Virus record (IMG/VR): IMGVR_UViG_3300022929_000171
Coordinates: 1 to 25,860 of that record
From: a virus
Length of the DNA stretch: 25,860 bases
Reading direction: 5' to 3' (one strand)
This document shows positions 14,339-25,860 of this stretch, piece by piece. Below the pieces are notes generated by a model. It was not told the origin of the DNA, did not search any database, and was given only the letters and a program-made list of their open reading frames with translations. Position 1 is the first letter of the stretch; the number at the start of each line of letters is the position of its first letter. A program made the translations under genes and the position numbers.

Positions 14339-14510
14339 CCTTATCCGGCCTCCACTTCATACCGATAATGTTCATAGATTCTTTCTTTGCCTTGTCGGAA
14401 TAAGTGCAGGGGGGAAGCTGCTTGATCTTCCCGCCTGCGCCCAGATATTTTTCAATATCCTTTTCCAACCGCTCCGAAATCTCTTTGTTGTGGAGCGTTG
14501 GTATTGTCAT
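14331..14510 (-). CDS. 59-residue hypothetical protein between Cro-like gene and NinB
   Basis: A short ORF starting MTIPTLHNKEISERLEKDI and ending WRPDKDE. It begins with an ATGA overlap with the stop of the Cro-like gene and ends overlapping the NinB start by 8 bases, filling the otherwise empty 168-base gap. GAGAAG lies just before the ATG. It has a charged helical start and a single Cys in LPPCTYS. Overlaps on both sides are the main support. Function unknown. Confidence 0.65.
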   Translation of the reverse strand: MTIPTLHNKEISERLEKDIEKYLGAGGKIKQLPPCTYSDKAKKESMNIIGMKWRPDKDE

Positions 14511-14713
14511 ATCTCTTCTCCTAATTTATAGACATCATCCATAGTCATCTCAAGTGAGTCGCAAATCTGCTTGTACCTGTGCAGAGTAATGCTTGCTCGC
14601 TCAAGTGTATGAGCGTAGTTAGCAGGTGTGCAATCAATCTCTGCTGCTACGGTCTTGAATAGCACACCCTTTTGCTGATGCGCTTTCCTTATTGCTGAAC
14701 CTATGTGAATCAT
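14507..14713 (-). CDS. Cro/XRE-like HTH regulator
   Basis: 68 residues from the ATG at 14713, preceded by AGGAG with good spacing; a longer start at 14737 lies inside the upstream gene. The pattern IGSAIRKAHQQKGVLFKTVA, then CTPANYAHTLERASITLHRY, then CDSLEMTMDDVY follows the helix order of small Cro/CI-type repressors. It would bind DNA as a dimer. It is the only clear transcription regulator in the window and a candidate for binding the operator-like palindromes at 20354-20378 or 22277-22294. Target is inference. Confidence 0.65.
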   Translation of the reverse strand: MIHIGSAIRKAHQQKGVLFKTVAAEIDCTPANYAHTLERASITLHRYKQICDSLEMTMDDVYKLGEEI

Positions 14714-14721
14714 ATCCACTC

Positions 14722-15210
14722 CTATGCTACACGCCACACACGAATACTCTTGTCCTTCTTAAAGTCTGGAGTCTGTCTAGTCGCGAGAGTCATCTTTAAT
14801 TTCTTGCCAACACCAAGGCTAATGCAGCGTTGGCTCTCTCCTGTAACAAGGAACGAGCTGCCAACCTTCATCTTCTTTAAAGTGTTTTCAACGATGGAAG
14901 AAAAACCTACTGGGTTTGCAGGCTGTATTGGGGGAATAGGAATATCATCGTTGACTTGTAAGACAGAACCAGCAGGATATTCTGTAGCGTCAGATTTAAC
15001 GGTAATCACTTTATCTTCTGGCGCAGGAATATTTTCCTCTACAGTTAATTCTGTTTGAGGCTTCTCATCTTCCAGCGGAAGGTTGCGCCAAACTAACTTC
15101 TCAACTGCTTCACTAAGATTCGCCAACCCGCAGATATCCTTGTATTCTTTAAGCGATTGAAAGGTTACTTGATCTAATCTAAGTTGAACATTCTTTACTG
15201 GTCTTTTCAT
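14722..15210 (-). CDS. Hypothetical protein with N-terminal RHH-like segment
   Basis: 162 residues from the ATG at 15210, which follows GGAGGATGAT; an upstream in-frame ATG at 15261 has no such site. The N-terminal ~45 residues (basic strand VKNVQLRLDQ, then two helices) resemble a ribbon-helix-helix DNA-binding unit. An acidic, Pro-rich linker follows (about 50-100), then a C-terminal domain (about 105-162) with basic strands (GVGKKLKMTLATRQT) seen in small phage proteins. Could be a regulator; I cannot name it. Confidence 0.6.
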   Translation of the reverse strand: MKRPVKNVQLRLDQVTFQSLKEYKDICGLANLSEAVEKLVWRNLPLEDEKPQTELTVEENIPAPEDKVITVKSDATEYPAGSVLQVNDDIPIPPIQPANPVGFSSIVENTLKKMKVGSSFLVTGESQRCISLGVGKKLKMTLATRQTPDFKKDKSIRVWRVA

Positions 15211-17322: not shown

Positions 17323-18291
17323 TTAATTGTCGTTGTCAACACTTGTATCAAAAGAAAATTTATGTGGCCTCCCTTCTCTCTCGGTGAGCTGCAAACTGTT
17401 GGGGTGAAAGTAAAAGTTTAATGCTCCTTCCCAACTACCATGCCGCTGCTTGGCTATGATGATTGAGTGGTCGTAAGTTTTCCCTAGATATTCCTGCTGC
17501 TTTTCGTCCAGTTCTCTGAGCTTTGCTATCTCCTTGAGCGCCTCGCGCTTCCTGTTTGGTTGAATGATTATCACGTTATCTGCCATGTCGGATAGTGAAC
17601 CCGCTCCTCTAATACTGTATCGCGAGGGAGCAATAGATTCGTCATCGTTCGGCGGCTTCTTAACGTGGGTTACTATGTGAAGGTGTGCGTTGTTACGCTT
17701 GACGATGTACTGCATCTTGTTAATGAACTCATTCTGCTGATTGTAGTCGTCATACTTCAGTGCAACCTTGCTGAGTGAGTCCAGAACAATATGGCTACAG
17801 CCTAGCTCCTTGGCTGCGTAGTGTATAAACCCAATGATTCTCTCGGGGGGCAGGGTATCTAGCGCATCGAATATATATATGCGTCCGTCAGCCCAGTCCA
17901 TAAAGCGATTCACGAATTCATCTGATGGTCTGCCTTCCTGTGCTCCTGCTGCCTGCATTAACATCCGGTGCAGCGTGACTGTCGGCTGCATCTCAAGCGA
18001 GCAGATGCAAACCTTACTAGTCTTCGCGAGGTGTAGCATGATCTGTCCTAGTACCATACTCTTCTTCGATCCATTGTACCCAGTAATCATGGTCAGCTCG
18101 CTAGGTCTATAACGGAACAACTCGTGAGACTTAGGGAATGGCATCGCCTCACCATACAACTGGTTGTCGGTATTGTTGTACTCTAAGAGATCGGTTCGCC
18201 AGTGTGAGCTTGACTTGAGATCTTGCGCCTCAAGCGTACCCAGTAAGTCCACATACGATTCATAGTCCAGACCGTCAGGTATATTTATCAT
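17323..18291 (-). CDS. DnaB/RecA-fold replicative helicase-like ATPase
   Basis: 322 residues, a single RecA-type ATPase domain. The P-loop is GYNGSKKS (71-78), a variant with Lys where Gly normally precedes the Lys-Ser; Walker B is HIVLDSL (Asp171). A later stretch (HIVTHVKKP, then SIRGAGSLSDMADNVI) matches phage DnaB-type helicases. The N-terminal primase-binding domain of full DnaB is missing. It would unwind DNA at the fork as a ring. It starts by ATGA overlap with the winged-helix gene, which may load it. Confidence 0.85.
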   Translation of the reverse strand: MINIPDGLDYESYVDLLGTLEAQDLKSSSHWRTDLLEYNNTDNQLYGEAMPFPKSHELFRYRPSELTMITGYNGSKKSMVLGQIMLHLAKTSKVCICSLEMQPTVTLHRMLMQAAGAQEGRPSDEFVNRFMDWADGRIYIFDALDTLPPERIIGFIHYAAKELGCSHIVLDSLSKVALKYDDYNQQNEFINKMQYIVKRNNAHLHIVTHVKKPPNDDESIAPSRYSIRGAGSLSDMADNVIIIQPNRKREALKEIAKLRELDEKQQEYLGKTYDHSIIIAKQRHGSWEGALNFYFHPNSLQLTEREGRPHKFSFDTSVDNDN

Positions 18292-18917
18292 CGGCTCACC
18301 TCCCAGTTATCATCCGATTGATTCTCTTGCTTGTGTCTTCTCTCCCATGTTCTTATTGCTGCCTTCCAATCCTTCATCGTGTCGCGTCCAACCTTCCATC
18401 CTCGAGCAGCGTACCAATCCACAAACCTCTCGCCATCAATACCATTCGCTCGGGATTTACAATAGGCAGTAACCTCATCTGCTGTTGGAGGAACGAAACG
18501 CTTTACTACCTTCTTCTCCTTCTTCTCATTCTTATAATTCTTAAGGTGTGGTGCGTTGTTGGTAGGTTGCTGGTGAGTTGCTGGTGAGTTGCTGGTAGAA
18601 TCTTGATACTTATCGTAGTAAGTTATTGTAATGATTGAGTATTTGTTGGTAGTTTGCTGGTGTATCATGCCATCACTTATGAGTAGCTTGAGTACCTTTC
18701 TGATGGTGTTCTCATTCATGCCCAATCTGTCAGCATAAACCTTGCGTCCGAAGACAAGTTGCCCTCTCTTTAAATGGATGAGTTGCCCATTAAATAGGCG
18801 GGTCTTGTCCTCGAAGTTAGCGCGGATTAACATCTCCAACCACAGTCGCAGTGCGTCCGCATCCTTCCAAATCCAGTGGTCAATCATTGACCTGTTAATC
18901 TTTATCCATCCTCCCAC
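18288..18917 (-). CDS. Winged-helix replication initiator / helicase loader-like protein
   Basis: 209 residues. The first ~105 residues (GWIKINRSMIDHWIW, LKRGQLVFGRKVYADRLGM, NTIRKVLKLLISDGMI) form a winged helix-turn-helix like phage replisome organisers (lambda O- or DnaD-related). A Ser/Thr/Asn/Gln-rich linker (about 110-130) and a basic C-terminal domain (about 140-209, DWYAARGWKVGRDTMKDWK) follow. The start is GTG, with AGGAGG eight bases upstream inside the primase gene. Direct coupling to the helicase gene supports an initiator or loader role. Confidence 0.75.
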   Translation of the reverse strand: MGGWIKINRSMIDHWIWKDADALRLWLEMLIRANFEDKTRLFNGQLIHLKRGQLVFGRKVYADRLGMNENTIRKVLKLLISDGMIHQQTTNKYSIITITYYDKYQDSTSNSPATHQQPTNNAPHLKNYKNEKKEKKVVKRFVPPTADEVTAYCKSRANGIDGERFVDWYAARGWKVGRDTMKDWKAAIRTWERRHKQENQSDDNWEVSR

Positions 18918-20706: not shown

Positions 20707-21579
20707 TTACGCTGCCTCAGAGACAGCCTCGCTCTCTGCTTTCTGTAAATCGTGTAGGTACTGCGCTGCCTTGGCTGCATGGCTTGCTGCTTGCACGATC
20801 AACTTCTTGTCATTCTTAAGGCCACGCATCCAGTTGTTTAGATACTTGGCATGGTCTGGTCTTGGTGTGTTGCTGATGCCTAGATCAGCGCATAGGAACG
20901 CTGCTCCCATCTCTGCGACTAGCTCCTCCTTGGCGTACTCGCTCGAACCAAACCCGCAACGCTTGAGTCTATCGAGGCGCGATGAGTGACCAGTCCAGTG
21001 AGTCAATTCGTGCATTGCCGTGCTGTAGAACTCTTCGATCTCATCGAACTGCGCAGCGGCAGGCATTCTTATCAGATCTGCACTCGGTGCGAAGTAGGCA
21101 GAATCGAACCCCTCTACCTCCTCGAATCGCGCTCCGGTATTCTTTATGAACTCCTCAGCCTTAGCGATGCGCTCGACTTCGGGCAGCGGTTCGGCGGTAG
21201 GTAGTGGTTCGACATCCTCTACCTGCGCAGCGTTAAACACCGTGCTCATTTTCAGCATTGGTATGCGCTTCTTGTCGCCTGTCTTTTTATCCTCGTATTC
21301 GTTGATCTGAAAAAATACTATCTTAGTACCTTTTGACCCCTTCTTAACCTTGTGACCTTTCGCTTGCCACGCTTTGAAGGTTCCGAACCGTGGGTCTGCG
21401 AACCCGCTAGACCAAAGCATGACCGTGTTAATTCCTCGGTATGCCTTGCCAGTTCCTATGCTATAAGGCATGCCTGCGATGCCGTCACTCTTCCACGGTT
21501 TCACCCAATCGGTGCCGTGCTCTTCCATCAGTTGTAATATCTTGTCGGTTACTTCTTGGTATGCGTCAAATTTAGCCAT
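20707..21579 (-). CDS. ardC: ArdC-like antirestriction protein (ssDNA-binding/metalloprotease)
   Basis: 290 residues in two parts. The N-terminal ~120 residues match the ArdC N-terminal (DUF1738) ssDNA-binding domain (WVKPWKSDG, YRGINTVMLW, FGTFKAWQAKGHKVKKGSKG). The C-terminal part is a zincin-like metallopeptidase with HELTH (His190, Glu191, His194) and a downstream helix EELVAEMGAA (third-ligand candidate Glu219 or Glu223). Family members protect incoming DNA from host restriction. GGAGGAGG lies inside the upstream gene's last codons. It is among the first early genes, as expected for a defence-evasion factor. Confidence 0.9.
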   Translation of the reverse strand: MAKFDAYQEVTDKILQLMEEHGTDWVKPWKSDGIAGMPYSIGTGKAYRGINTVMLWSSGFADPRFGTFKAWQAKGHKVKKGSKGTKIVFFQINEYEDKKTGDKKRIPMLKMSTVFNAAQVEDVEPLPTAEPLPEVERIAKAEEFIKNTGARFEEVEGFDSAYFAPSADLIRMPAAAQFDEIEEFYSTAMHELTHWTGHSSRLDRLKRCGFGSSEYAKEELVAEMGAAFLCADLGISNTPRPDHAKYLNNWMRGLKNDKKLIVQAASHAAKAAQYLHDLQKAESEAVSEAA

Positions 21580-21581
21580 CG

Positions 21582-21779
21582 TTAAACCTCCTCCGGTTCT
21601 AGTTCGCTTTCTGGGTATGCGTATTCAGTATTAATCCAGAACAAATCCGCTCCATCTGGGTCTGCGTATTCTGGATCAACTCGCATCAAAGCGCGAGTGT
21701 CATCGTTAATATCGTGCGCTATCACTAGGCCAGAAAAGTAATAGCCACTATCTTCAAATATCATTCTAAGGTTTTCCAT
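21582..21779 (-). CDS. Very acidic small protein next to ArdC
   Basis: 65 residues with about 17 Asp/Glu, only three Arg and no Lys, giving a strongly negative protein. Aromatic-rich (FEDSGYYFSG, LFWINTEYAYP). Its last codons carry the ArdC ribosome site, so the two are co-expressed. The charge suggests a possible DNA-mimic, but no family is recognised. Confidence 0.6.
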   Translation of the reverse strand: MENLRMIFEDSGYYFSGLVIAHDINDDTRALMRVDPEYADPDGADLFWINTEYAYPESELEPEEV

Positions 21780-21782
21780 TGC

Positions 21783-22022
21783 TTACACTCCCTTGTAAAT
21801 TTCAACTTCGTAACAGTCTGAGCCTAGATCATCTAGCTCGTTCCAGTAGGTAAAATGCGCCTCGTTTTCCACAATCTGAAAAGTCGGCTCAGTTACTCCT
21901 AAGCCTTCCAGTTTAGCGAGCCATCGGTCTAGCACTCGTTCGTCACGATCATCTAGCGGCTCATCGTTTACCAGCGCATGAACTGCCCACGTTGGTAGCA
22001 CTACAGTATCCCAATATTGCAT
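21783..22022 (-). CDS. Acidic hypothetical protein, first gene of the early operon
   Basis: 79 residues, acidic and aromatic (MQYWDTVVLPTWAVHALVND, then HFTYWNELDDLGSDCYEVEIY). CTGGAGG lies eight bases before the ATG. Similar small proteins are often seen beside ArdC-type genes in phages and plasmids, as I recall. As the first gene after the early promoter it is probably made immediately after infection. Function unknown. Confidence 0.65.
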   Translation of the reverse strand: MQYWDTVVLPTWAVHALVNDEPLDDRDERVLDRWLAKLEGLGVTEPTFQIVENEAHFTYWNELDDLGSDCYEVEIYKGV

Positions 22023-22045
22023 TTGCTTATCCTCCAGTTGATTCA

Positions 22046-22072
22046 GTAGAACGCGCTCGGTAGAACGCGCTC
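22046..22072. repeat. Two tandem copies of GTAGAACGCGCTC
   Basis: Identical 13-base copies at 22046-22058 and 22060-22072, one turn-plus apart (14-base period), within 50 bases of the first early gene. Could be a protein-binding site or a slippage duplication. Confidence 0.7.
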
Positions 22073-22250
22073 AGTTGATGCAACTAGTGTCAATTTGTAT
22101 TAACCAGTAAGCCTATGCTCCGCTTACCTTCACCATCGATTCGCTCACACAAGAGCGTCCCATCCGGCAGCCCGCGCTATAGCCCACGGTTGCTTGAATC
22201 ACTGTTGCTGCTATCACTGGCGAGAGGCATCTGTGCGCTTCAGCCGTGGC

Positions 22251-22267
22251 GGTAGCACCCTGCTACC
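22251..22267 (-). repeat. Leader hairpin GGTAGCA/TGCTACC
   Basis: A perfect seven-pair stem with a three-base loop in the untranslated leader of the early transcript. CCACGG and CCGTGG copies further along (about 22182-22248) could form an additional long-range stem. Confidence 0.6.
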
Positions 22268-22276
22268 TAGTGATTC

Positions 22277-22294
22277 GTTGTTATCCTTAACAAC
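22277..22294. promoter_or_regulatory. Operator-like palindrome at the early start site
   Basis: GTTGTTA-TCCT-TAACAAC, a perfect 7-4-7 inverted repeat, begins about two bases after the predicted leftward start. It could bind a repressor dimer, or form a 5'-terminal hairpin on the early mRNA. The core TAAGGATAA (minus strand) is repeated in the -10 region. Confidence 0.55.
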
Positions 22295-22303
22295 TTGGAG
22301 TCC

Positions 22304-22331
22304 ATTATCCTTATATTGTCGAGAAGTACAA
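22304..22331 (-). promoter_or_regulatory. Candidate leftward early promoter
   Basis: Minus strand: -10 GATAAT (22304-22309, 5 of 6) and -35 TTGTAC (22326-22331, 3 of 6) with a 16-base spacer. Start predicted near 22296. It is well placed for the entire early operon, but the -35 match is weak. Confidence 0.45.
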
Positions 22332-22432
22332 TAACCTAGACCAATATTTTTTTGAAACTTTGTATCAATTTTGAGTGTCGTATCAGACTGGGTTTCGCCT
22401 ATATAGAAGGGAGACTTGACGCATAGAAACTA

Positions 22433-22448
22433 CTGTATGGATATACAG
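22433..22448. promoter_or_regulatory. LexA-like SOS box
   Basis: CTGTATGGATATACAG fits the enterobacterial/gammaproteobacterial LexA consensus CTGT-N8-ACAG with an alternating AT-rich N8, and the preceding TA extends the match. TTGACG (22416-22421) sits 11 bases upstream, but no convincing -10 follows it, so the controlled promoter is not identified. Confidence 0.5.
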
Positions 22449-22600
22449 CGAATTGCGTGTATTGAACGATCGGCATGCAACCAATACCAAGGCAAGGGGT
22501 AACGCTAAAATCGCTCAGAAGGCAAATTTGAGCGTCTGAGAGGCATTCAGGTTTCTGAGTGATTATGGGCATCCGGTGATAAGGAAATGTTATATAGTGC

Positions 22601-22670
22601 TGATCGGGTGATGGGTAGGTGATTGGGTGATGGGTTGATCGGGTGATCTGGTGACGGGGTGATTGGGGGG
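22601..22670 (+). repeat. Octamer array TGATNGGG (eight copies)
   Basis: Eight consecutive units: TGATCGGG, TGATGGGTAGG, TGATTGGG, TGATGGGT, TGATCGGG, TGATCTGG, TGACGGGG, TGATTGGG, then GGG. The period is 8 bases apart from one unit with three extra bases. The plus strand has more than four GGG runs separated by 4-12 bases, so a G-quadruplex is possible. The location beside terminase genes suggests iterons, a packaging site, or a regulatory array. Confidence 0.75.
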
Positions 22671-22930
22671 TCTGTATTGGTTGCTGCGCTGACCCTCACC
22701 CCTGCCCGTTGGCTCTGCCTCTCTGACCCCAGTAGGCAGTGAAGGCATTCTCTCAGCTCTGAAATAAAGCGAACGCTCGCTCGATAAATCAGGCAAAGGG
22801 GGAAAAGATCGGAGACGGGGGGAGGGCTGGCTCGCGCGCGTTACATATAGTTGCCCCCCAAATTTGCAGCAGGCCAAATTAGAAAAAAAAGCAAAACACA
22901 AATCCTCCACACCCCGCACGAATAGCGCAT

Positions 22931-22956
22931 TTGACTAAATGTTGGCGTAATATAAT
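22931..22956 (+). promoter_or_regulatory. Possible rightward promoter before packaging genes
   Basis: TTGACT (22931-22936, 5 of 6) and a perfect TATAAT (22951-22956), but with only a 14-base spacer, which is short for sigma-70. AT-rich DNA follows to the first packaging gene. An activator could compensate, or only the -10 may be used. Confidence 0.4.
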
Positions 22957-23009
22957 AAATCATGGTTTAATTGCTTAACTTTTAATCAACCAACAGTTAC
23001 GAAGATGTA

Positions 23010-23393
23010 ATGGAAGACAACACAAACAACACTACAGAAGACCTGCCCGTAAAGCGTAAGCGTGGTAGACCCCGTAAATCCGAACTGATCCCAGAGAAGC
23101 GGGGCAGAGGACGACCCAAGGGTGACCACTCCGCTATGCAGGAGATGAAGCAGAGGTTCTTGGCTAGGAGAGATACGCCTGCCGTAATCAATGCGATATA
23201 CAAGGCGGCTATGGATGACGATCATAAGAACCAAGCTGCTGCATGGAAGCTGATTATAGATAGGGTCTTGCCTGTCAGTGCATTCGACAAGGATAAGATG
23301 GGCGGCAGACCAACGGTTAACATTACTATCTCTGGCGTAACAGATATGCCGAGCATAGAGGGCGAGGTCATTGACCATGAACAGATTGATTGA
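23010..23393 (+). CDS. AT-hook DNA-binding protein, possible small terminase
   Basis: 127 residues. Two AT-hook-like motifs (KRKRGRPRKSE at 15-25 and KRGRGRPKGD at 30-39) would bind the minor groove of AT-rich DNA. A helical part (AVINAIYKAAMDDD, NQAAAWKLIIDRVLPVS) and a short C-terminal tail follow. Position just before lysozyme and large terminase, and resemblance to small pre-terminase proteins of marine phages, suggest DNA recognition for packaging. It overlaps the lysozyme start by 17 bases. Confidence 0.65.
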   Translation: MEDNTNNTTEDLPVKRKRGRPRKSELIPEKRGRGRPKGDHSAMQEMKQRFLARRDTPAVINAIYKAAMDDDHKNQAAAWKLIIDRVLPVSAFDKDKMGGRPTVNITISGVTDMPSIEGEVIDHEQID

Positions 23394-23796
23394 TCTACTG
23401 GTTAAGCATGAGGGCTTGCGCACCAAACCATACGAAGACTCTGTTGGTGTCCTAACAATAGGCGTAGGACGCAACCTAGATGACGTAGGCTTATCCCATG
23501 ACGAAATCTACTATCTTTTGAAGAATGACATCCGCAGATGCGAGGAAGAACTAGATAACTCCTTTAGGTGGTATAAAGACCTCGATCAAGTAAGAAAGGA
23601 TGCTATGATAAACCTATGCTTCAATCTTGGTATATCAAGGTTGAGGAAGTTCAAACTGGCTTTACGAGCTATGGAAGTACGGGATTACGAGGATGCAGCG
23701 GATGAATTTTTAGATTCGCTGTGGGCTACCCAAGTAGGTCAACGAGCTATGGAAGTCACTTATATGATTCGATTTGGAGAATACTATGGACAATAA
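23377..23796 (+). CDS. T4-type lysozyme (endolysin, GH24)
   Basis: 139 residues from the ATG at 23377. The catalytic triad spacing equals that of T4 lysozyme: HEG (Glu12), PYED (Asp21) and LTIG (Thr27), with the GVGRNLDDVGLS segment after it. It cleaves the MurNAc-GlcNAc bond of peptidoglycan. An in-frame TTG two codons upstream is a less likely start. No signal peptide is visible, so a holin or other membrane lesion would be needed. A 15-base sequence occurs twice in frame (23664-23678 and 23742-23756), encoding RAMEV each time. Confidence 0.92.
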   Translation: MNRLIDLLVKHEGLRTKPYEDSVGVLTIGVGRNLDDVGLSHDEIYYLLKNDIRRCEEELDNSFRWYKDLDQVRKDAMINLCFNLGISRLRKFKLALRAMEVRDYEDAADEFLDSLWATQVGQRAMEVTYMIRFGEYYGQ

Positions 23797-24016
23797 ATCG
23801 CGAAGAAATACATCAAATCAACAAATTAAAAAAAATACAGCAATGAAAAAACAAGCTGCTCGTGATGATTTTCAGCAAAAGAAAAAAGAATCTATGCTGC
23901 GATCATACAAAAATTTTGTTGATAATCATTTGAAAGATCCAACCAGACAAGCAAAAGTAAAGAAAGATTCTTTGTATAGAATGGCTCTTGAACTTGAAAA
24001 AAATAATTCAAAATAA
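23786..24016 (+). CDS. AT-rich, highly charged small protein
   Basis: 76 residues from the ATG at 23786, preceded by GGAG with six-base spacing. Very rich in Lys, Asn and Gln (SNQQIKKNTAMKKQAARDDF), likely helical and basic. Its DNA is clearly more AT-rich than the lysozyme and terminase genes, suggesting separate acquisition. It overlaps the lysozyme end by 11 bases. Could bind DNA or RNA; no family recognised. Confidence 0.65.
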   Translation: MDNKSRRNTSNQQIKKNTAMKKQAARDDFQQKKKESMLRSYKNFVDNHLKDPTRQAKVKKDSLYRMALELEKNNSK

Positions 24017-24032
24017 GTAAAGGAATAAAGTT

Positions 24033-24125
24033 ATGCCTCAAGTAGACGGAAAGAAATATCCTTATACTCCTGCGGGAATGGCAGCAGCCAAGAAAGCAAA
24101 GAAGAAGGCTAAGAAGAAAAAGTAA
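24033..24125 (+). CDS. 30-residue Lys-rich peptide
   Basis: MPQVDGKKYPYTPAGMAAAK followed by nearly uninterrupted Lys and Ala. AAAGGAATAAAG precedes the ATG and the stop overlaps the terminase ATG (TAATG). Short peptides with a G-K-K-Y/F-P-Y-T start and a basic tail recur in marine phages near packaging or head genes, as I recall. The charge suggests DNA binding. Too short for usual gene finders, but coupling and ribosome site support it. Confidence 0.7.
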   Translation: MPQVDGKKYPYTPAGMAAAKKAKKKAKKKK

Positions 24126-25372
24126 TGAATCTAAACATAAGTCTCCTTGATTGGCAGAAGGAAGTCTGGAACGACCCAACCCGTTTCAAGGTAGTTGCTG
24201 CGGGTCGTAGGACGGGCAAGTCTCGTCTTGCGGCCTACCTTTTGATAGTCAACGCCCTGAAGTCCGATAAGGGTCAGGTGTTTTATGTCGCACCAACCCA
24301 AGGCCAAGCACGAGACATTATGTGGAACTTGCTCCTAGAGATAGGACGACCAGTAATAGAAAACTCCCACGTTAACAATATGCAAGTCCGTCTAATCAAC
24401 GGGACAACTATTAGCTTGAAAGGCGCAGACAGACCTGAGACTATGCGTGGTGTAAGCCTCAAGTTTCTGGTCATGGACGAATACGCAGACATGAAAGCAG
24501 ACGTTTGGGAACTTATACTCCGACCTGCGTTGACAGACCTGAAAGGAGAGGCTTTGTTTATAGGCACACCAATGGGTAGAAATCATTTCTATGAACTCTA
24601 CAAACTAGCCAGTTTAGGCGAAGACAAGACCTATAAAGCATGGCACTTCACCAGTTACGACAACGATCTCCTAGAGAAGTCGGAGATAGATGCAGCCAAG
24701 AAATCTATGTCCTCCTACGCATTCCGTCAGGAATTCCTAGCCTCTTTTGAAGCTAGAGGCTCTGAGATGTTCAAGGAGGATTGGATAAAGTTTGATGAGG
24801 AAGAGCCGACTACTGGTGATTACTATGTAGCCATTGACCTCGCGGGTTTTGAAGAGGTAGGTAAAAAGACCAAAAATAAGAAACTTGACAACACTGCAAT
24901 CGCTGTGGTAAAAGTCGGCGAATATGGATGGTGGGTTTGTGATATAATAGCCGGACGCTGGGAGTTGAATGAGACTGCCCAGAAGATATTTCAGGTTGTT
25001 AGGGATTACGAACCAGTATCAGTAGGGATAGAGAAGGGTATTGCTAGGCAAGCCGTTATGTCCCCGCTGACCGATCTCATGAGGAAATATCAGCGTTTCT
25101 TCCGTGTAGAGGAATTAACTCACGGTAACAAGAAGAAGACAGACCGTGTGATGTGGGCATTACAGGGTAGGTTCGAGAATGGCGTTTGTACTCTCAACAA
25201 AGGAGAGTGGAACGTACAATTCATGGACGAGATATTTCAATTCCCTGATGCTCTTACACACGATGATATGGTGGACGCACTAGCCTACATAGATCAGTTG
25301 GCTACTGTGTCCTACGCTTATGACTTTGAGATTGATGAATACGAAGTCATAGATTCTGTTTCGGGATATTAA
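24125..25372 (+). CDS. terL: Terminase large subunit
   Basis: 415 residues. ATPase: Walker A AAGRRTGKS (25-33), Walker B FLVMDE (114-119) and the IGTP coupling motif (about 146-149). RNase H-like nuclease: YVAIDLAG (Asp238) and the C-terminal HDDMVDA (379-385, Asp380/381/384). This is a complete genome-packaging motor that cuts concatemers and pumps DNA through the portal. It follows the Lys-rich peptide by TAATG coupling and precedes the portal by one base. Confidence 0.95.
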   Translation: MNLNISLLDWQKEVWNDPTRFKVVAAGRRTGKSRLAAYLLIVNALKSDKGQVFYVAPTQGQARDIMWNLLLEIGRPVIENSHVNNMQVRLINGTTISLKGADRPETMRGVSLKFLVMDEYADMKADVWELILRPALTDLKGEALFIGTPMGRNHFYELYKLASLGEDKTYKAWHFTSYDNDLLEKSEIDAAKKSMSSYAFRQEFLASFEARGSEMFKEDWIKFDEEEPTTGDYYVAIDLAGFEEVGKKTKNKKLDNTAIAVVKVGEYGWWVCDIIAGRWELNETAQKIFQVVRDYEPVSVGIEKGIARQAVMSPLTDLMRKYQRFFRVEELTHGNKKKTDRVMWALQGRFENGVCTLNKGEWNVQFMDEIFQFPDALTHDDMVDALAYIDQLATVSYAYDFEIDEYEVIDSVSGY

Positions 25373-25373
25373 T

Positions 25374-25860
25374 ATGCTAGAAAGCAACGAAGATAAATTC
25401 GGCATAGAAGAGACGCTTGAGTCTTGGGTAATGGAGAAGTGCCGCGAGTGGCGCGACCATTACGAGTCAAACTACGAAAACAAGTTTGACGAATACTACC
25501 GTCTCTGGCGCGGGATATTCTCTTCGGAAGACCGTAACAGAGATTCTGAGCGGTCACAGATTATCTCCCCTGCCCTACAGCAAGCCGTAGAGTCTTCGGT
25601 TGCAGAGATTGAGGAAGCAACCTTTGGGCGTGGCAAGTTCTTTGATATTAAGGATGACGACCAACAACCACAGGACATAGCGTACCTTCGCGATCAGTTA
25701 ACAAAAGATTTCAAAAAGAACAAAGTCCGCAAAGCAGTAGGAGAGTGTTTGATTAACGCCGCTGTATACGGAACAGGTATTGCTGAGTTAGTCCTCGAAG
25801 AAAGAAAAGATATGCGTCCTGCTTCGCGTCCTACTATGGACGGTCAACTACAAGAAGTAG
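25374..25860 (+). CDS. Portal protein, N-terminal part (cut by window edge)
   Basis: 162 codons are visible and the frame remains open at the edge. The N-terminus is charged and helical (CREWRDHYESNYENKFDEYY), followed by a portal-like segment (RSQIISPALQQAVESSVAEI, EATFGRGKFFDI) and NAAVYGTGIAELVLEE. Position directly after the large terminase is the standard place. Portals form the dodecameric ring for DNA entry. The remainder lies outside the window. Confidence 0.85.
   Translation, partial: MLESNEDKFGIEETLESWVMEKCREWRDHYESNYENKFDEYYRLWRGIFSSEDRNRDSERSQIISPALQQAVESSVAEIEEATFGRGKFFDIKDDDQQPQDIAYLRDQLTKDFKKNKVRKAVGECLINAAVYGTGIAELVLEERKDMRPASRPTMDGQLQEV

Follow-up and report, generated by a model that had tools for sequence, protein, structure and literature searches.

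What role is played by a tandem array of short G-rich repeats that lies between the early genes and the packaging genes of a phage? The array occurs in a phage fragment, a complete virus record of 25,860 bases (the window, i.e., the whole stretch of DNA that was analyzed), and the original prediction offered three roles for it: origin iterons, a packaging recognition site or transcription control.

The array and its genomic setting

The leftward gene block of the window (12.0-22.0 kb) codes for an O-like initiator, a DnaB-like helicase, Erf and YqaJ recombination proteins, NinG and an ArdC-type anti-restriction protein, and the rightward block, from 23010, for an AT-hook-like ORF, an endolysin, the large terminase and the portal. 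The array is located within the approximately 1 kb that separates the two blocks and is flanked by divergent transcription units (the closest leftward ORF starts at 22022, and the closest one of the rightward packaging block at 23010), as would be expected of an operator array. The features considered below are the following:

18288-18917, minus strand: DnaD-like or lambda O-like replication initiator or helicase loader (phrog_2514, 4.8e-37; phrog_345, "replication initiation O-like", 1.3e-6)
18542-18597, minus strand: 11-base tandem iterons in the initiator gene, the best origin candidate, away from the array
22433-22448, no strand: LexA/SOS-type box CTGTATGGATATACAG, upstream of the leftward early operon
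22533-22813, no strand: cassette replaced in the relative L121, with flanks 99.5-100% identical on both sides
22601-22667, plus strand: the array, eight octamers of the TGAY-NGG type, kept in L149 and, altered, in L165
22675-22702, plus strand: core motif TATTGGTTGC followed by C-rich ACCCTCACCCC, the switch point from G-rich to C-rich
22811-22890, plus strand: conserved block before the packaging genes, GGAGACGGGGGGAGGG ... ATATAGTTGCCCCCCAAATTTGC ... AAATTAGAAAAAAAA, from family comparison
23010-23393, plus strand: putative small terminase (TerS), AT-hook-like, named by position only (Pfam AT_hook below cut-off; no confident PHROG match)
24125-25372, plus strand: large terminase (TerL), from profile matches

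All relatives used for comparison are metagenome contigs. Relatives of approximately 34.2-34.9 kb exist, one of which has a 127-base repeat at its ends, as a circular assembly would. Among named phages there was no DNA match to the window; their TerL matches were all below 60% identity, and a tail protein gave 2 weak matches. The host search through genome contigs matched four MAG contigs from four unrelated lineages, and no host was therefore assigned. Loci L101 and L144, in which the pattern was read as lying in an unrelated coding context, and L160, from the same contig as L009, were dropped; L113 was omitted from most family comparisons without inspection and was later shown to be a true family member.

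The eight units predicted at this place are indeed found, starting at 22601, 22609, 22620, 22628, 22636, 22644, 22652 and 22660, but only four of them (22601, 22620, 22636 and 22660) are exact copies of TGATNGGG; the remainder comprise one TGACGGGG, two TGATGGGT and one TGATCTGG. Seven units begin with TGAT and one with TGAC. The eight-base period, described earlier as regular over 67 bases, is the strongest of its kind in the window, although one of the spacings (8, 11, 8, 8, 8, 8 and 8) breaks it: the lag-8 self-match of 42/60 is the highest in the window for lags 7-12, compared with at most 33 in 30 order-2 Markov shuffles. The array receives TRF scores of 51 in an 8-base and 65 in a 24-base description. 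Its seven GGG runs all occupy the plus strand, as had been noted. Two minus-strand ORFs, of 50 and 109 aa, cross the array, and the longer has no match in Pfam or PHROG.

Nine further viral contigs contain the same octamer array, and only three of these have a TerL at all, be it a distant one. In three contigs with only distant TerL (L085, at 1629, L086 and L087), a TGATGGGG array overlaps the start of a leftward ORF; this array type arises independently.

Origin and packaging roles

As origin iterons bound by the replication initiator, the array would have in its favor that it consists of short direct repeats close to the GC-skew minimum (approximately 22.0-22.5 kb); this minimum, however, coincides with the switch in gene orientation. 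According to a published account (PMC7466680), the lambda origin lies in the middle of the O gene. The present phage is similar in that it combines tandem repeats with an O-like initiator, but its lambda-like iterons are those within the initiator gene (18542-18597), whereas the array lies 3.7 kb from that gene. At lag 11 the initiator gene of the window self-matches at 31/36 positions, and 15 of 19 orthologues (window included) reach at least 24; shuffling the window gene 40 times gave 23 at most. The iterons sit in the linker of the gene, and because 11 is not a multiple of three their periodicity is a feature of the DNA. Lag-11 repeats, by lag count alone, also occur in L102, L134, L131, L105 and G005, in which the N-terminal part of the initiator differs. 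The units of the array, by contrast, change too fast for a conserved initiator: L109, with 91% identity in the initiator N-terminus and 77% in part of the early region, carries TATTGGGT units instead. Since the initiator gene has its own conserved iterons in most orthologues, the origin role is disfavored, and we consider it very improbable.

The reading of the array as a pac or cos subsite, recognized by the AT-hook protein and the terminase, draws on its position, approximately 340 bp before the putative terS, and on its TGATC-type repeats. The latter recall the pac site of P1, which consists of seven TGATCA/G hexamers inside pacA (PMC10028697); the likeness lies in short direct repeats that begin with TGAT near packaging genes. 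The array differs from that site in containing only two TGATC[AG] and three GATC, rather than some seven hexamers with GATC, in lying outside terS, and in being missing from a strain with identical terminase. The strain in question, L121, has putative TerS and TerL proteins 100% identical to those of the window and no array, and L004 (TerL 99.8%; TerS 94.7% over 113 aa) also lacks it, its similarity ending at 22816. The block at 22811-22890, present in 30 of the 44 TerL loci whose upstream sequence extends for 2 kb or more, would be a better candidate than the array for a late promoter or packaging site. Because L121 lacks the array despite its identical terminase proteins, a packaging role is disfavored and appears improbable. 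All in all, the array is probably neither a replication start nor a packaging signal.

Contig ends were also considered as a guide to the genome ends and were rejected: their distances from TerL are spread (an end occurs within 5 kb in 58 of 80 loci), and a few ends that group immediately to the left of the block near 22811 (6 of the 58 loci within 70 bp) are ambiguous, as assemblies that break off at the variable cassette could yield them too.

A replaceable cassette and its strand polarity

Close relatives of the window serve as natural experiments. L149 is 99.2% identical over 22457-25860; 25 of the 26 differences lie to the right of 24600, and the array is unchanged base for base. In L121, identity is 100% over 21403-22532 and 99.5% over 22814-25860, but the cassette in between is a different one. 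L121 might conceivably be an assembly chimera, though its two arms fit the same haplotype. Its cassette carries its own SOS-type box and its own G-rich tract, and matches other relatives well only in the right third. Otherwise unrelated to that of the window, it retains the array 16-mer TTGGGTGATGGGTTGA (0/1000 shuffles; the next best relative reaches 11).

The third relative, L165, is 94% identical to the window from 22606 to 23788 and lacks approximately 210 bp to the left of the array, SOS-type box included. In its array, one TGATCTGG unit is duplicated exactly and the first two units are missing. Over the array and core motif (22617-22710), 1 of 94 positions has changed, versus 17 of 100 in 22711-22810 (Fisher 8e-5), a contrast that comes from one pair, with boundaries picked after the alignment was inspected, and that recent recombination could also produce. 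There are 0/47 changes in 22854-22900, and the change rate of array plus motif does not differ significantly from that of the coding flank (p=0.24). Absence from close relatives, which the original prediction had named among its refuting conditions, is seen in L121 and L009 but not in L149 or L165.

Throughout the family, the cassette is a hypervariable intergenic segment between the conserved early-gene leader and the conserved block preceding the packaging genes. In pairs of relatives with right flanks 86-98.5% identical, the cassettes fall below 75% identity in 21 of 24 cases, the pairs not being independent. A strict core, TATTGG[CTG][TA]GC, occurs in 30 of the 51 relatives with at least 150 nt upstream, and 21 lack it. 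G exceeds C in the 45 nt to the left of the core in 28 of these 30 loci (the exceptions are L099 and L103), C exceeds G in the 35 nt to its right in all 30, and CCC is found within 80 nt to the left in none; the 30 loci are not independent, as near-duplicates were kept (L007/L008/L126, L102/L131/L134 and window/L149). Both medians were matched at 0 of 5500 other positions in these loci. Because 12 of the 30 tracts are significantly periodic (p<0.05), with best periods of 6, 7, 8, 11, 12 and 14, repeats recur at the place of the array with different units. The pattern TGATN?GGG occurs in 9 of 40 tracts, versus 2.3 expected (300 shuffles, maximum 7). Across the family, then, the unit sequence varies and the G-left/C-right polarity persists.

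Other elements occupy the same region. Within 480 bp of the conserved block, a strict SOS-type box (CTGTN8ACAG) is found in 27 of 46 relatives and a relaxed one (CTGKN8ACAG) in 36 of 46, whereas the remainder of the loci predicts 0.013 strict boxes per 480 bp. No integrase was detected among the window ORFs searched. The conservation of the box suggests, by its sequence, SOS-linked early control in a phage that lacks an integrase among those ORFs. In some relatives GTGTTACC octamer repeats adjoin the SOS-type box. Five DnaA-box-like TGTGGATAA repeats lie in this intergenic region in L031 (2965-3038), L035 (3707-3780) and L120 (1156-1228) and are absent there in the window. A palindrome-like CGAACGCTCGCTCG / CGAGCGTTCGTTCG, in either orientation, is present at 22770-22783 of the window and in many relatives (L012, L098, L109, L122 and L128).

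The leader of the leftward early operon (22195-22294, minus strand) contains a candidate structured RNA around a conserved core. Its outer helix is kept by wholly different sequences: GAATCACT/AGTGATTC in the window, GATAGAC/GTCTATC in L009 and GCGGGCTT/AAGCCCGC in L109. By eye the L165 helix pairs with a mismatch, and the script found only 4 pairs. The candidate has no Rfam match, and a viral scan recovered it in no more than four contigs. A perfect 14-base direct duplication, GTAGAACGCGCTCG (22046-22072), lies just outside the leftward operon.

The regulatory reading and its alternatives

We tentatively favor, at somewhat less than an even chance, the view that the array forms the G-rich half of a fast-evolving cis-regulatory element between the early and late genes. 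The element would consist of a G-rich tract, a TATTGGYTGC core and C-rich ACCCTCACCC; it is short and strand-asymmetric, lies in a divergent control region, and would belong to a cassette exchanged wholesale among phages of the family. In this lineage the G-rich half would have expanded into octamers via whole-unit duplication. We infer that the element acts on transcription, for which two options may be proposed: (i) a phage or host regulator may bind the units as repeated weak sites, or (ii) the tract, G-rich on the non-template strand, may promote opening of the strands or R-loop formation in rightward transcription. The G-richness of the plus strand beside the core would be more important than the number of copies or the exact unit. 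The position, the polarity, the unit duplication, the cassette replacement and the low substitution in one 94% pair are direct observations. Transcription control emerges as the best of the three roles originally offered, as it fits the position and the behavior of the cassette, although no sigma-70-like promoter was found in 21950-23050. This lack of a promoter signal, a negative pairing test and the loci without polarity or strict core count against the regulatory reading.

The pairing test concerned a conserved hairpin between the G-rich left and C-rich right tracts, which was rejected. Tracts bind their own partners no more strongly than those of other loci (duplex -16.9 vs -17.8, p=0.91; fold -20.3 vs -21.1, p=0.89; n=23 loci after removal of 7 near-duplicates), and the folds of the window are unexceptional (RNA z -0.05 and -0.08; DNA z -1.81). 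Rfam returned no gathering-level match; a SNORD86 match at 22509-22564 was below the Rfam cut-off and was taken as chance.

A selectively neutral repeat, generated by slippage in a hypervariable intergenic spacer and with G-richness as a by-product, would account for units that differ among relatives and are absent from many, for the clean unit duplication in L165, and for the same octamers in other viral contigs mostly without TerL. The polarity kept on the left and right of the core (28/30 and 30/30 loci) and the conservation of array and motif relative to their neighbor in L165 argue against this explanation, which we regard as rather unlikely. Alternatively, a lineage-specific repressor or activator may bind TGATNGGG cooperatively, such that cassette swaps alter regulatory or immunity specificity. 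The units common to the window, L149 and L165 are consistent with such an operator array, as is the 16-mer that L121 still carries within a swapped cassette between identical flanks, and a small early ORF at 14507-14737 (minus strand; no match in Pfam or PHROG), which reads as HTH-like, would be a possible binder. The different units of L109 weigh against it, and we judge it unlikely.

A broader proposal, of which we are distinctly doubtful, takes 22533-22813 as a hypervariable regulatory "specificity cassette" that is swapped whole between phages whose genomes are otherwise identical, its fixed G-left/C-right polarity around TATTGGYTGC and its multi-copy units being kept because a common factor that controls the early/late switch reads them. 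Such a cassette would resemble an immunity region, but without a repressor gene. Finally, the plus strand of the array might build a G-quadruplex switch, as its seven GGG runs on one strand, its G4Hunter scores (mean 1.39; maximum 1.80 over 25 nt, a value exceeded in the window only by the 1.92 at 22798) and canonical motifs in 4 of 30 relatives (L007, L008, L009 and L126) might suggest. The canonical pattern (four G3+ runs, loops 1-7), however, is seen in the array only when loops of up to 12 are allowed; with loops of at most 7 it occurs nowhere in the window, and it is absent from 26 of the 30 loci. The G-quadruplex potential attributed to the array was not borne out at this loop length, and such a switch seems highly improbable.

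Mosaicism is a known property of lambdoid immunity and control regions, and the present locus is alike in that a compact control cassette is exchanged between near-identical flanks. It differs in that the swapped 281 bp are purely intergenic and hold no repressor gene. G-tract/R-loop elements, e.g., those of the ColE1 or mitochondrial replication-primer regions, share with the array, which is known here from sequence alone, a tract of G runs and a strong strand asymmetry.

Comparison of near-identical strains can thus make a repeat that looks like an origin or a packaging site unlikely to be either. The results point to a general trait of this uncultured phage group, namely a swappable, strand-polarized control cassette that lies between the early and the late genes. 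Its exchange could alter how co-infecting relatives regulate or exclude one another.
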